Shown here piece after piece: positions 45,500 to 51,832 of a DNA stretch of 64,000 nt. Source of the stretch: an uncultured Selenomonadales bacterium (GTDB lineage Bacteria; Bacillota; Negativicutes; Acidaminococcales; Acidaminococcaceae); contig OMYP01000001.1 in NCBI GenBank assembly GCA_900315345.1, forward strand, positions 1-64,000, written 5' to 3'. The stretch's first letter is position 1. The number at the start of each line of letters is the position of its first letter. A model generated the notes under the pieces. It worked only from the letters and a program-made list of their open reading frames with translations. It made no database searches and was not told the origin of the DNA. A program made the translations under genes and the position numbers.

Positions 45500-45533
45500 A
45501 TCGCCGTTGCTGATTCAGCACGGCGATTTTTTT
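45500..45533 (+). terminator. Terminator of the YjiH-like gene
   Basis: Plus strand ATCGCCGT pairs with ACGGCGAT (one bulge) and is followed by seven T, ending at the stop of the convergent gene. Confidence 0.88.
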
Positions 45534-47542
45534 CATTTCTTACGGCGAAAGTTCAATACACTCGTAACCTCTGTCAGCTTATCTTCAACCTGTCCGCATC
45601 GAATTTTTTTATCCGAAACAATGAGCGCTTTGGGAAACTTCTTCCAGTCTATGGCATCGACGCCTCTGATCTCGTTATTGAAAATCTGCATCCCTTCTCC
45701 GCACACAAATTTTTTCAAAAAGTTCCGAAGTATTTCAGATATATCCGCGTCCACCGCATTACCATACGCGCGTGCGGTTTCTTTGTTCCCAAACAATGCC
45801 GTCGCCACTTCCACCGTACCTGATCCAAGGTTCTCGATCAGCGGTTTCTCATCCCAGTAAAAAAGATGTACTTTACTACCGCTTTCGGCCAGCCTTTTTC
45901 CGCAGAGATACATGCTCAACACATACCCCATTTCATACAGCTTCATTTTTAATTCCAGCTCAGACTCCGTCGCTGACAGTTCTTTAACATAGTCATTCAG
46001 CGTTTGCATATCAGGAGCATAAGAATCATCAAAATCATGCAACAGGTCGGTAATCACTTTGGCTGTGAAATCCCAGTAAGTTACCAGTATCTCTTCAACT
46101 TTTTCCCTGCCGATAAACGACTGGAAAACCTGTCTTTCATTATTGGGAATCCCGATGATAAATTCGATACCGGAAGCAGCTCCCTTTTGAAAAGCCGTAA
46201 ACACATCGGCCGGAATCAGTTTTCCATCGCAGGTGGGTACAGACAAATCCTTCCAGAGCTTCTGGGAAACTTTTTTCAATTGTTCTGTGGAAAGCTGCTG
46301 CAGCTCCTCCATGTTCTTCGCCGACGTTTCCTGTAAAAGCTTCGCTGCCAAGAAGCGGGACGCATCCGGCGTATCATACGCACCTTTGGGACTGCCAAAA
46401 AACACAAATGCTTTCCGGAACAGGCCTTTTGCCTGCTCACAGGCGGCAAGAAGGCTGATGGACGTGGCCCCGGATTCAAACCCCATCACGGTAATCCTGT
46501 CAGGATCACCTCCAAAGGCAGCTATGTTTTCTTTGATCCAGTGCAAAGCCGCAATCTGGTCAAGGAGGCCAAGATTTAAGGCGTCCGGATAGGCCTCCCC
46601 GCCGGGGACTTTCGAAAAATCGATAAAGCCAAAGAGGCCCAGCCGGTAATTAAAGCTGACACCCACAACGTCCGGGAAGGCGTGGATAAAATCACTGGCA
46701 TCCATTAAAGGATCGGCAGCCCCGCCGTATGTAAAATCACCGTGGTGGAACAGCACCAGGACGGGCTTTTTCCGATCCGTTTTTTTCCTGCCAGTACAAA
46801 TATTCAGCGTCAGGCAATCTTCGCTTTGCCTGTGATGTTTTAAAATCGAGCCTTCGAGCTCTACCTGTATGGCAGAAGCGCCCAGGTATTTTGCCTCGAA
46901 TACGGCATCCGATTCAGGCAGCGGCTCAGGCGCTTTCCATCTGTGCTCGCCCACAGGAGGCTTTGCATAGGGAATTCCCAAATAATAAATGACGTTTTTT
47001 TCTTCGACGCCAACATAGATGCCTGTTTTTGTCCTTACGGCACAATCAGTGTCATATGCGCCGCGGATTGGCCGGTTCTGCCGGTTCACTTCGTCCAGAT
47101 CGGCGTCTTTCAGCACGTGGTCAAACACAAATCCGTTGCTTCCATCTCCGTAGCTTTCGCGGATTTTCCGGATGCGGTACCAGCGTACAGCCATACTGAA
47201 TGCAAACCCTAATATGGGAGCAAGAATTACATAAGCATACTGTCCGACTAACGCCTCCAGCATGGATATTTCCATCCATGACATGGCCACATACTGAGCC
47301 GCAAGAAAGCTGAAGATAAGCGCGGCAAAAACCAGATACCGGTACGCCGGGTTTTTCTGTATGGCCTTGCTGAAGACGATCTTGTTTCCTATCTCCTGCA
47401 ATACATATCCGGCAGCAGAGCAGATCAACATGCACTGCCAGAGCGGCCAGCCAAGCATCTTTGGAACCTCAAAACCTAATCCGTACCCGACCGCCGAAAT
47501 GCAGGCAACCATTAAGTCATCAATCGTAAATAATTTTTTCAT
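45533..47542 (-). CDS. Membrane-anchored carboxylesterase homologue, catalytic residues lost
   Basis: Residues 1-125 form four hydrophobic helices; residues about 165-640 are a type B carboxylesterase (alpha/beta hydrolase) domain, clear from YYLGIPYAKPPVGEHRWKAPEP, EDCLTLNI and FNYRLGLFGF. Aligned by eye with the paralogue at 49581-51167, the nucleophile motif GESAG is replaced by GFESG (354-358), putting Glu356 in the Ser position. The catalytic His in EHGVEL becomes Gly575 in SGTVEV, and the oxyanion HGG becomes HHG (266-268). The acidic residue (Glu469) remains. A binding or scaffold role is inferred. AAAAAGG lies 6 nt before the ATG. It follows the amidohydrolase by 36 nt. Confidence 0.85.
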   Translation of the reverse strand: MKKLFTIDDLMVACISAVGYGLGFEVPKMLGWPLWQCMLICSAAGYVLQEIGNKIVFSKAIQKNPAYRYLVFAALIFSFLAAQYVAMSWMEISMLEALVGQYAYVILAPILGFAFSMAVRWYRIRKIRESYGDGSNGFVFDHVLKDADLDEVNRQNRPIRGAYDTDCAVRTKTGIYVGVEEKNVIYYLGIPYAKPPVGEHRWKAPEPLPESDAVFEAKYLGASAIQVELEGSILKHHRQSEDCLTLNICTGRKKTDRKKPVLVLFHHGDFTYGGAADPLMDASDFIHAFPDVVGVSFNYRLGLFGFIDFSKVPGGEAYPDALNLGLLDQIAALHWIKENIAAFGGDPDRITVMGFESGATSISLLAACEQAKGLFRKAFVFFGSPKGAYDTPDASRFLAAKLLQETSAKNMEELQQLSTEQLKKVSQKLWKDLSVPTCDGKLIPADVFTAFQKGAASGIEFIIGIPNNERQVFQSFIGREKVEEILVTYWDFTAKVITDLLHDFDDSYAPDMQTLNDYVKELSATESELELKMKLYEMGYVLSMYLCGKRLAESGSKVHLFYWDEKPLIENLGSGTVEVATALFGNKETARAYGNAVDADISEILRNFLKKFVCGEGMQIFNNEIRGVDAIDWKKFPKALIVSDKKIRCGQVEDKLTEVTSVLNFRRKK

Positions 47543-47578: not shown

Positions 47579-49246
47579 TTACGCTTTGAACACTTCTTCA
47601 CCGTCTACGATGGTAGCAATGATATTTGCCTGGGCGACCTTCTCCAGATCGTCGTGCAGGAAATCGCAGTCAAACACCGTCATATTGGCAATCTTGCCGA
47701 ATTCGATGGATCCCATGCGATGCTCCTGGTGCCACTGACGGGCTACGTTAATGGTCATGGCGCGCAGGGACTGTTCCCGGGTGATGGCTTCCTTGAGATT
47801 GTGCGGTTTATCAATTCCCCCGAGGACTTCTTCCGGATACGAGCGTTTTTCCGCTGTATAAAAGCTGTATTTGACATTCATCAGCGGAGAAACCGGATAG
47901 TCGGAATGGAACACCACGTTTGCGCCTGCATCATAGAACGATTTGATGGGATACGAATTCTCTGCCAGCTCCTTACCGACATATGAAACCTCGATTTCAT
48001 AATTTCCCGGAATTTCGGCGGTCCACAACGGCGGAACAGCCGGAATGGATCCTGTTGCTCCCATGCGCCGGATATCCTCTTCGGTCACAAAGTGCAGATG
48101 CGCCAGCACGTTGCGCTGATCCAGGTTGCCGGTAATCTTTTCCGCATCCTCGATGCAGTCCAGCATGAAATGCACCGCGCCGCCGCCTTCGGAATGGACA
48201 TGGACTGCCATACCTTCCTTGTCTGCCTCTGTAATCAGCTCCACCATCTTGTCATGGTCGTTGAATCGTTCCACACCGTGATAGCCCGGCTGATCCAGGT
48301 AATCCTGATTCTGCCAGCCTGTATGGGCCTCGGTCACACCATCCAGGAAGGCCTTGGCGCCGATAATATGGAAATATTCGCCGCTTAACTGGGCACGTTC
48401 TGCGGCAATTCGGGCAATTTCTGCCTTCGGGCTTTCAATATTGTCAAGAACATACATATAGGCGTAAGTCCGCAGTTTCAGCCGGCCTTCCTCTTCCAGC
48501 TCATGGTAGGCTTGGGGAGCATCCCGGTGGACAACTTCCACACCGGCATCTCCGACAGCGGTAAAGCCGCTGCTGAGAGCGTAATCCTGCCACGCCAGCA
48601 GATACTCTTTTATATCTTCTACTGTCGTGGGAAGTTTGGGTACGATCTCGAACACGGGATTTTCACAGATGTAACCGTCCGGTTCCCCATTGGCATCCAC
48701 ATGTACCATGTCATAGCCGATCTTCTTCGCATATGCCGCATCTATGCCGGCCCATTCCAGTGCCTTGGTATTAAGCAACATGGAATGTCCGCCGCCTGTA
48801 TGCAGGAGCAGCGGCTTATCGGCGCAGATTTCGTCCAGATACGCCTTGCTGACGTATTCCTCATTCTCCACCCACCCGGAGGCTACATAGAAGTTGCGCT
48901 GAGGATTCTTCGCGATAAATTCCCGGATAATTTCACGGTATTTGGCATAGTCTGTCAGCCCCGCCTCCATCAGGTTTGCCTGCCCGATAAGGCGCAAGCC
49001 GGCCAAATGACCATGGCAGTGAGACTCAAGGAAACCGGGATAGATGTAGTTGTCGCCGTAGTCCAGTACCTGCGCGCCGGGTCCGGCAAGACGTTTCGCT
49101 TCCTCCGCTTCGCCGATATAGGCAAACACACCGTTCTTGACCAATGCCGCCCTGGCAAAAGGTCTCTTTTCATCCATAGTAATAATATTGCCGAAAATAA
49201 TCGTTTGTTTCATAACATCGATAGCGTTATCTGCAACGTTTTCCAT
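47579..49246 (-). CDS. YtcJ-type amidohydrolase (amidohydrolase family 3)
   Basis: A metal-dependent hydrolase of the AdeC/YtcJ group. Motifs are YIYPGFLESHCHGHLAGL with the HxH metal pair (the variant is HCH), GKAFLDG-like AKAFLDGVTEAHTG, VHVHSEGGGAVHFMLD, HLHFVTEEDI and NVVFHSDYPVSPL with the catalytic Asp. Substrates in this group are often N-acyl amino acids, amides or cyclic imides; none can be named here. GGAGG is 5 nt from the ATG at 49249 and 8 nt from that at 49246. Neighbours are two esterase-family genes on the same strand, so ester or amide degradation is a reasonable guess. Confidence 0.85.
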   Translation of the reverse strand: MENVADNAIDVMKQTIIFGNIITMDEKRPFARAALVKNGVFAYIGEAEEAKRLAGPGAQVLDYGDNYIYPGFLESHCHGHLAGLRLIGQANLMEAGLTDYAKYREIIREFIAKNPQRNFYVASGWVENEEYVSKAYLDEICADKPLLLHTGGGHSMLLNTKALEWAGIDAAYAKKIGYDMVHVDANGEPDGYICENPVFEIVPKLPTTVEDIKEYLLAWQDYALSSGFTAVGDAGVEVVHRDAPQAYHELEEEGRLKLRTYAYMYVLDNIESPKAEIARIAAERAQLSGEYFHIIGAKAFLDGVTEAHTGWQNQDYLDQPGYHGVERFNDHDKMVELITEADKEGMAVHVHSEGGGAVHFMLDCIEDAEKITGNLDQRNVLAHLHFVTEEDIRRMGATGSIPAVPPLWTAEIPGNYEIEVSYVGKELAENSYPIKSFYDAGANVVFHSDYPVSPLMNVKYSFYTAEKRSYPEEVLGGIDKPHNLKEAITREQSLRAMTINVARQWHQEHRMGSIEFGKIANMTVFDCDFLHDDLEKVAQANIIATIVDGEEVFKA

Positions 49247-49266
49247 CATTATCCCCTCCTTTGGTC

Positions 49267-49580
49267 TCAAAATACTTTTATAATTATAGCAGACGGTCCG
49301 TCACTGCCTTCATCGGCCATAAAATACTGTCCGTCATCTTCAATTAATGAAGCAATTAGTATAACAGGGCCTCCTTAACATTGATTTACTCAATTATAGC
49401 AAAATGGATAATGAAATTCCATCGCCCATAAGCAACACCTTTTTCTGAAATAAACAGGAGTTTAAGCGGCTGGTTTATACTATAGCTTAATTTGCTGATG
49501 ACATCGGTGAACCCCGCCAATTTGTTTTCAGACGGACCAGCAGTAATCAGATTATTAGTGAAAGTCCGACCCCTTCTGTC
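49267..49580 (-). other. Intergenic region with two extended -10 promoters and a short open frame
   Basis: Two TGCTATAAT elements occur on the minus strand (about 49282-49290 and 49392-49400), the nearer one next to a GACGG-A-CCGTC palindrome. A 35-codon open frame (49267-49374) lies between GGAGG and the amidohydrolase ribosome binding site. It has protein-like composition (ILIASLIEDDGQYFMADEG) but no standard start codon near the GGAGG. The part from 49401 to 49580 shows nothing recognisable. Confidence 0.4.
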
Positions 49581-51167
49581 TTAAAAATAACATTTTGCCA
49601 GGAAATAGGACCTGTCCCAATCCACGATCTTTCTTTCGGATTCCTTTTCCGGATGGATATCAAACTCGTCAAAGATCATTACCTTCCGGTCCGCTGTGTC
49701 GTAGATCGGCCACTCCTTCGCCTTCCCGTCCGGAGAAATGTCTGCGCTGAGCGAGGGATTGCCGGTCTTTGCGAACTGGACCCACATTTTACGCATAGTT
49801 TTTGCAAAGGTTTCATCAAATACTTTTTCCGTAGCGTCGGTCATCTCCGGATGATTGAATACAAGTGTAAGCTCTACCCCATGTTCAGGTGCAGCCGTGA
49901 AAAAATAGGTGTACGATCTGCCTCCGGCTTTAGTCTGGCTCTCCGACAATCGCATGAGCGGCGCATTAAACCAGATCTGATTGAACAACTGTCTGTTACG
50001 TTCATCGTTTCCGCCCTTCACATCCTTGCAGAAGCTTTCTGCCAACGCTTTTTCTTCCTCCGTCAGCCGGGCAAACTTCTTTGTCTTGCGGTCAGCGGCC
50101 CACAGTTCGAAGCCATCTTCTCCCATGACCGATGCGAAATAATCAAATTCACCTTTGTTGCAGCCAAGAAGAAACTCAATGTCCTTCGCTGCGCCGTTTG
50201 CATAGGCCTCCCACGGATCCGGCGGCAGATAGTTTCCGTCTCTTTCCGGCGCGGTGCGCATTGAAAGCACAGTGGATGCGTCCACGAACTTTCGGGCATC
50301 TATCTGCTGCAGATCAGCAACGGTTTTGCAGCCGAACAGATCCATCATTTCATTGGTGCACCCGATGGCTTCTTCCGCAGATCTCGTAAGAGCGGGCGAA
50401 CCGCTTTGGGCAATGACCCGCTTAAAATAAGCATGGGAGCCTTTCACCAGCGGAAGCAGCGACACGCTTCCGGCACCGGCAGATTCGCCCCAGATCGTCA
50501 CGTTATCGGGATCGCCGCCGAAGCCGGCAATATTCTCATGGACCCACTTCAAAGCCATTATCTGGTCCATGAGCCCCAGATTCTGGGCATCCGGATACTC
50601 CTTGCCATCCGCCAGATGGGACAGATGGAAAAACCCGAATACGCCGAGCCTGTATGCCACGGTAACGACAATAACATCCGGATTCTCTTTTATAAAATTG
50701 CAGCAATCAAACACCGGATAGGCCGTCCCTCCTGCTTCATAAGCGCCGCCGTGGATCCATACTATGACCGGCTTTTTTTCCGCAGGTGCTTCATCCGCCT
50801 TCCAGATGTCCAGATACAGACAGTCTTCTCCCTGACAGTAAAGGAGATCCAATCCGTCCAAGTCCTTAGTCTGAAAGGGGCTTTTCCCATTGTAGTACGC
50901 CTCGTACACGCCGTCATCAGCAGCAAAATTCACTGGCGCTTTCCAGCGAAGATCCCCCACAGGCTGCCTGCCCACAAAGGGAATGCCCTTGTACGCAATA
51001 ATATTCTCCGTCTTTTTGCCGACAAAGATGCCGTTGATGCACCTGACCGCCAGCTCCTTGTCATAATGACCGTCTGTAATCCGTTTGTTCTCGCCGTACT
51101 GTATCATCGCTTTCAGCTGCTCTAACATGATATTCCCAGCGTTCTGTTCCCTACTTATTTCGCTCAT
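49581..51167 (-). CDS. Carboxylesterase, type B, intact triad
   Basis: A cytoplasmic alpha/beta hydrolase of the carboxylesterase/para-nitrobenzyl esterase family (528 residues, no signal peptide). The oxyanion motif HGGAYEAGG starts at residue 139, the nucleophile is Ser229 in GESAG, the acid Glu340 in GCNKGEFDYF, and the base His429 in PEHGVEL. YPDAQNLGLMDQIMALKWVHENIAGFGGDP is the typical helix before the nucleophile elbow. The ATG at 51167 has AAGGAG at 9 nt. It precedes the amidohydrolase and the dead esterase paralogue on the same strand and may work in one degradative pathway with them. Confidence 0.92.
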   Translation of the reverse strand: MSEISREQNAGNIMLEQLKAMIQYGENKRITDGHYDKELAVRCINGIFVGKKTENIIAYKGIPFVGRQPVGDLRWKAPVNFAADDGVYEAYYNGKSPFQTKDLDGLDLLYCQGEDCLYLDIWKADEAPAEKKPVIVWIHGGAYEAGGTAYPVFDCCNFIKENPDVIVVTVAYRLGVFGFFHLSHLADGKEYPDAQNLGLMDQIMALKWVHENIAGFGGDPDNVTIWGESAGAGSVSLLPLVKGSHAYFKRVIAQSGSPALTRSAEEAIGCTNEMMDLFGCKTVADLQQIDARKFVDASTVLSMRTAPERDGNYLPPDPWEAYANGAAKDIEFLLGCNKGEFDYFASVMGEDGFELWAADRKTKKFARLTEEEKALAESFCKDVKGGNDERNRQLFNQIWFNAPLMRLSESQTKAGGRSYTYFFTAAPEHGVELTLVFNHPEMTDATEKVFDETFAKTMRKMWVQFAKTGNPSLSADISPDGKAKEWPIYDTADRKVMIFDEFDIHPEKESERKIVDWDRSYFLAKCYF

Positions 51168-51235: not shown

Positions 51236-51832
51236 TTAAAGATTGTTTTGAGATAAATATTGCTTTACTTCTTCTATCAGTTTGTCGCCGTCATAATTTT
51301 TGAAAATTTTAATCATGCAACCGCTTATCATCGGATTCAGTTCAAGACCTAACTCTATAGCACGGGTATCGGTTTTGAATCCATAGCACCGTTTACCGAA
51401 GCCGTATGCGATACCGAGCTCAACGCAAGCCCCTTCATCCGGCACCCGGCCATCTAAATTCATAAAAACAACATCTGCCTTTTTTACTTCACCGGCATCC
51501 AATGCAAAAATCATCTTAATGAGTTCTTCTTCCGACTTTCCCTGTAACTGGGCGGCTTCAATACCATCTCGTTGTGGTAAAAAGACCTGATAGCCACAAT
51601 CTTCAAGCAGTTTCGTAAATTTCAGATTGAAATCCTTTTCGCCCTGATTAAACATCGGACCAGCAAGATAAACTTTCTTTCCGGTACCGGTGCTTTTGTT
51701 TATCTTTGTTTCAGCAGCATTTTTGACGGTAGTATTGCTTACATCACCATTGCTGTTTGCGCACGCAGCAAAGGAAAACATTACCCCGGCACACAGTATT
51801 ATAGTTCCTGCCAGCTTTGAAATTTTTTTCAT
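51236..51832 (-). CDS. Nucleoside 2-deoxyribosyltransferase-like lipoprotein
   Basis: The first 24 residues are a lipoprotein signal (KLAGTIILCAGVMFSFAAC, lipobox FAAC with Cys24), followed by a 25-residue Asn/Thr-rich linker. Residues 52-198 are a nucleoside 2-deoxyribosyltransferase domain: KKVYLAGPMFNQGEKDFN, YQVFLPQRDG, AGEVKKADVVFMNLDGRVPDEGACVELG with Glu138 at the place of the catalytic nucleophile. Known members of this family are cytoplasmic and exchange bases on deoxynucleosides, so an exported, lipid-anchored version is unusual. AAGGAG lies 11 nt before the ATG. Activity is inferred only. Confidence 0.78.
   Translation of the reverse strand: MKKISKLAGTIILCAGVMFSFAACANSNGDVSNTTVKNAAETKINKSTGTGKKVYLAGPMFNQGEKDFNLKFTKLLEDCGYQVFLPQRDGIEAAQLQGKSEEELIKMIFALDAGEVKKADVVFMNLDGRVPDEGACVELGIAYGFGKRCYGFKTDTRAIELGLELNPMISGCMIKIFKNYDGDKLIEEVKQYLSQNNL

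Follow-up and report, generated by a model that had tools for sequence, protein, structure and literature searches.

The question raised by this locus is whether a carboxylesterase homologue whose catalytic residues are missing is a decaying gene, an enzyme of another kind, or a protein that binds rather than cuts. In the window, i.e. the whole stretch of 64,000 nucleotides analysed here, an open reading frame runs on the reverse strand from an ATG at 47542 to a stop at 45533 without any internal stop codon (Table 1). Pfam COesterase (PF00135) covers residues 169–613 of its product with an E-value of 1.4e-69 and a score of 235.8 bits against a cut-off of 27, so that both the frame and the match bear out the carboxylesterase homologue that a preliminary description had placed here. 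As in the PF00135 enzymes, the whole alpha/beta-hydrolase domain is present, and the fold signatures said to be retained are found as SEDCL and GDP..IT. An AlphaFold2 model built from 45 sequences (mean pLDDT 85.9, pTM 0.87) has the esterase fold, and VIA-align relates it to Est55 (2ogs), the p-nitrobenzyl esterase (1qe3) and a Thermaerobacter esterase (8wdm) with Z of 38.5–43.4 and 27–30% identity over 445–468 residues, the esterase domain giving Z 43.4 with 8wdm_D (468 aligned, rmsd 2.9) and Z 43.1 with 2ogs (455 aligned, rmsd 2.8). The intact paralogue, which the preliminary description had put about 2 kb away, lies at a distance of 2,039 bp and carries GESAG and PEHGVEL.

Table 1. Positions of the pseudoesterase, its parts and the associated genes (window coordinates unless a locus is named)
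Feature	Position	Strand	Evidence
Membrane-anchored pseudo-carboxylesterase, 669 aa	45533..47542	(-)	stop-free ORF, PF00135 match, 44 full-length relatives
N-terminal four-helix membrane domain and linker, residues 1-165	47048..47542	(-)	AlphaFold2 helices, hydropathy, charge
Esterase-fold domain, residues 166-669, predicted cytoplasmic	45536..47047	(-)	VIA-align structure matches, charge bias
Altered oxyanion loop H266-H267-G268-D269-F270 (HGGAF in active relatives)	46733..46747	(-)	alignment
Glu356 replacing Ser at nucleophile elbow	46475..46477	(-)	74-sequence alignment
Glu469, kept equivalent of triad acid	46136..46138	(-)	E in 38/45 family, 28/29 active esterases
Gly575-Thr576, site of catalytic His in active relatives (column of 576)	45815..45820	(-)	alignment
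Amidohydro_3 (YtcJ-type) metal-dependent amidohydrolase, directly upstream	47579..49270	(-)	PF07969 E 2.7e-57; HxH, HSD metal motifs
Intact carboxylesterase paralogue	49581..51167	(-)	PF00135 E 1.5e-88; GESAG, HGG, EHGVEL
c2	L083:10018-10665; L010:7261-8004; L038:3778-4485; others	(-); (+); (-)	

The catalytic positions were compared in an alignment of 74 sequences, comprising 45 family members and 29 other esterases that these genomes encode. Position 356, which is Ser in all 29 other esterases, is Glu in 37 family members, Asp in three, Gly in two, and Ala, Asn and Ser in one each, and in the model Glu356 lies exactly at the nucleophile elbow, between strand 345–355 and helix 357–366; alignment and model thus agree with the replacement of the nucleophile Ser by Glu356 proposed earlier. 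The proposed loss of the base His also holds, but its exact column was misplaced: the position occupied by His in 29/29 other esterases corresponds to Thr576 and not to the adjoining Gly575, and the family has Thr (40), Ser (2), Met, Gly and Ala (one each) there. The change of the oxyanion motif from HGG to HHG was read correctly, the full change being HGGA to HHGD, with His266 in 45/45, His267 in 40/45 and Asp269 in 43/45 members, where the 29 active esterases have G at column 267 and A, G or S at column 269. Asp269 is a further departure, since in the alignment it substitutes the small oxyanion-hole residue that is Ala107 in Bacillus subtilis p-nitrobenzyl esterase, a residue given as the homologue of human butyrylcholinesterase G117 (PMC4100338). 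Measured against active carboxylesterases (EC 3.1.1.-), the family member in the window therefore has GFESG for G-x-S-x-G, Thr576 for the catalytic His and, like most of the family, HHGD for HGG[AG], and keeps the Glu/Asp of the triad as Glu469. These losses are not a matter of chance, because His is gone in 45/45 and Ser in 44/45 members, whereas none of the 29 other esterases has lost either. The idea that the adjoining Ser357 (in GFESG) serves as nucleophile was rejected, since seven members have Ala, Asp or Met there. Judged from the sequence, the old active site lacks the means of ester cleavage, the Ser/His pair being gone and acidic Glu/Asp356 and Asp269 standing in place of the nucleophile and in the oxyanion hole.

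The 44 full-length relatives share 35–75% identity and come from Negativicutes, Lachnospiraceae and Coriobacteriia-like genomes. A single scan of genome contigs recovered 26 loci, almost all of them encoding the N-terminal helices, in Succiniclasticum, Selenomonadaceae, Oribacterium and other Lachnospiraceae, and in metagenome-assembled genomes labelled Coriobacteriaceae, Eggerthellaceae and Chloroflexi. In whole-genome searches, the window's class gave strong matches in 32 of 380 genomes, the Oribacterium family in 4 of 397, and the order to which the Eggerthellaceae assembly belongs in 3 of 199; 6 of the 14 genomes of the window's genus carry the gene, and a sample of 398 genomes of its phylum contained no further member beyond the window. 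In a quick tree, which includes three long-branched deep members, the 45 family members form one clade on one side of a fully supported branch. In these deep members (L070, L071 and L074, 35–40% identity) the N-terminal helices are present and the His is missing, which places the loss of His at the base of the sampled family. L071 is the only member with Ser at the elbow, again without His, and no orthologue has an intact triad. In the cultured Selenomonas ruminantium TAM6421, plasmid pSRC1 carries an orthologue (WP_014431236.1, 58% identity over the full length), which is nevertheless labelled as an ordinary esterase ('carboxylesterase family protein'), and whose gene neighbourhood contains a HAD hydrolase and a two-partner secretion system instead of amidohydrolases.

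Pairwise dN/dS is 0.13–0.28 throughout a set formed by the window gene and four copies from its genus. Between the window and L038, pN/pS is 0.16 in the core (residues 126–400), 0.26 in residues 1–125 and 0.39 in residues 401–669, i.e. the core is the most and the C-terminal part the least constrained, and the loops HHGDF, NYRLG and NLGLLDQ are almost invariant across the family. The relatives thus share the same losses while the remainder is under purifying selection, as expected of a pseudoenzyme, and the pseudoesterase is an old, conserved pseudoenzyme family and not a decaying gene.

Besides the missing Ser and His and the Asp in the oxyanion hole, four extra membrane helices distinguish the protein from PF00135 enzymes. 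These added N-terminal helices, already noticed in the preliminary description, occupy residues 7–29, 34–56, 65–90 and 95–131 in the model, and the family-average hydropathy has four peaks before residue 120, a pattern that is family-wide. Residues 1–165 have no sequence match in Pfam or the PDB, and no copy of this domain joined to an intact esterase occurs in the 380 Negativicutes genomes searched. The net charge is +3.8 in loop 2-3, −2.3 in loop 3-4 and +4.1 after helix 4, from which, by the positive-inside rule and the modelled helices, both ends of the membrane domain are predicted to be inside and the esterase domain cytoplasmic. On the neighbouring enzymes, read by eye, no evident signal peptide was seen.

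This topology bears on the suggested likeness to neuroligins, whose esterase-like domain is extracellular and held by one C-terminal helix. The likeness stands insofar as both are non-catalytic members of the same fold, but it does not extend to the architecture, which here consists of four N-terminal helices and a domain predicted to be cytoplasmic. With the domain placed in the cytoplasm by charge bias, it would not be an adhesion ectodomain, and a role in extracellular adhesion was rejected on this ground. The non-catalytic relatives of cholinesterases in animals comprise neuroligins, gliotactin, glutactin, neurotactin and the C-terminal domain of thyroglobulin (PMC5943944). The pseudoesterase resembles them in its fold, lost triad, long conservation and, for most animal members, membrane attachment, and differs in being bacterial, in its four N-terminal helices and predicted cytoplasmic domain, and in having hydrolase genes as neighbours. 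It is likely to have arisen independently of them, as far as a tree without animal sequences indicates. In the open-licence literature nothing was found on bacterial carboxylesterase pseudoenzymes.

The neighbours of the gene were counted within 6 kb at 48 loci, a few of which are near-copies of one another: an Amidohydro_3 gene is present at 26, an intact esterase at 19, c2 at 16, a LytS-type kinase and a response regulator at nine each, and a DUF3089 hydrolase at six; adjoining genes are often −3 to 64 bp apart. The constancy of the pseudoesterase across these loci is partly by construction, because the loci were chosen by it. The neighbouring amidohydrolases, which all carry the HxH metal motif, fall into six groups with less than 45% identity, and the adjacent intact esterases belong to several distant clades with branches near one change per site. 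The membrane protein c2, about 215 aa long with two helices, has no Pfam or NCBIfam match; a fold search of the PDB gave no match with E below 0.96, the model being moderate (pLDDT 75.6, pTM 0.60). Of the genomes that carry the pseudoesterase, 17 of 24 also have c2, against 1 of 56 of those that lack it (Fisher p 5e-11, which ignores relatedness). In the window, a frame at 51236–51832 (-) encodes a nucleoside 2-deoxyribosyltransferase-like domain after a lipoprotein-like signal sequence, an odd place for this enzyme. In addition, six tandem PF00135-like esterase matches lie on bases 5–8916 of contig C51 in the genome (G773) of locus L005, an unusual expansion in a rumen Selenomonadales.

These data suggest that the pseudoesterase binds or organises rather than cuts. 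As a tentative but plausible reading, we propose a cytosol-facing, membrane-bound hub that docks, or senses for, changing hydrolases. The four N-terminal helices would hold the protein in the inner membrane with the esterase-fold domain directed, as predicted, toward the cytoplasm. Since the pocket loops are strongly conserved, binding most likely persists, and the old pocket would then most likely accept a small molecule, perhaps positively charged or a metal, or a partner protein. Together with c2, where present, the pseudoesterase could form a fixed membrane hub for changing cytosolic esterases and amidohydrolases; the six amidohydrolase groups and the several esterase clades are easier to reconcile with a hub than with a subunit of one particular enzyme. 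Against it, about 40% of the 48 loci show no amidohydrolase and no esterase within 6 kb (the flanks are short at some), and c2 is absent from the window's genome and from four of the five gene-carrying relatives of its genus. More specifically, it is possible, if rather doubtful, that the dead esterase and c2 make up a constant cytosol-facing platform that assembles or controls changing hydrolases in degrading an ester or amide compound of the rumen.

A sensor of a two-component system is the main rival to the hub. In this view the pathway's substrate or product would occupy the dead pocket, and the signal would pass to the divergent LytS-type histidine kinase and its regulator, or to c2. His_kinase/HATPase and response regulator genes adjoin the pseudoesterase at the nine loci each counted above, and at L081, L085, L090, L091, L094 and L095 the kinase is transcribed divergently, the pseudoesterase being the first gene in the other direction; however, most loci, the window included, are without such a kinase within 6 kb, and the kinase has a membrane sensor part of its own, and we regard a sensor as rather unlikely. 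A LytS-type sensor kinase with a response regulator is also seen near the operon at L016:2301–4497 (+), and a regulator-like frame at L010 (1275–1949, -) has an HTH followed by a receiver domain.

Another alternative is an enzyme with a new active site, in which Glu/Asp356, His267 and Asp269, perhaps with a metal, would catalyse a different reaction in the old pocket. Haloalkane dehalogenases and epoxide hydrolases are alpha/beta hydrolases with an Asp nucleophile, and the residues in question are well kept (356 is acidic in 40/45 members, besides the frequencies given above for His266, His267 and Asp269). Nevertheless, five members have Ala, Gly, Asn or Ser at 356, and Ser357 varies to A, D or M, so that neither is needed, and the catalytic His is gone in all; such an enzyme is unlikely. 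The pseudoesterase could instead regulate the neighbouring active esterase by pairing with it in a fixed heterodimer, an arrangement known from other enzyme/pseudoenzyme pairs. Both have the same fold, an esterase gene is nearby in the window and at 19 of the 48 loci, and relatives of this fold dimerise via a four-helix bundle (PMC5943944); but the esterases next to it are spread over several distant clades, many loci have none, and the C-terminal part is the least constrained, which makes a fixed pair quite improbable.

Least credible of all is a non-functional gene on its way out, as signs of free decay are absent for the family as a whole and decay is contradicted by its dN/dS and by motifs invariant across phyla, although among the 36 Negativicutes genomes with the N-terminal domain about eight, which are metagenome-assembled, have copies broken by stops or frameshifts, one of them with three stops and a shift. 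An unbroken gene is present in the window and in near-complete genomes including S. ruminantium TAM6421, several breaks fall at A-rich runs typical of assembly error, and neighbouring esterases in draft loci are sometimes broken too (L018 and L084). Frame breaks are seen in the drafts of L114, L115, L116, L117, L099 and L119, some at A-rich runs, and such breaks may reflect assembly error, phase variation or loss.

In animals, cholinesterase relatives without catalytic activity are known as adhesion proteins; a cytoplasm-facing bacterial family, without the triad but with the fold maintained by selection across phyla, would represent a separate re-use of that fold. Because the family is annotated as 'carboxylesterase', functional predictions from rumen genomes wrongly count it as an enzyme. 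With an orthologue in the cultured S. ruminantium TAM6421, the operon is a testable system.
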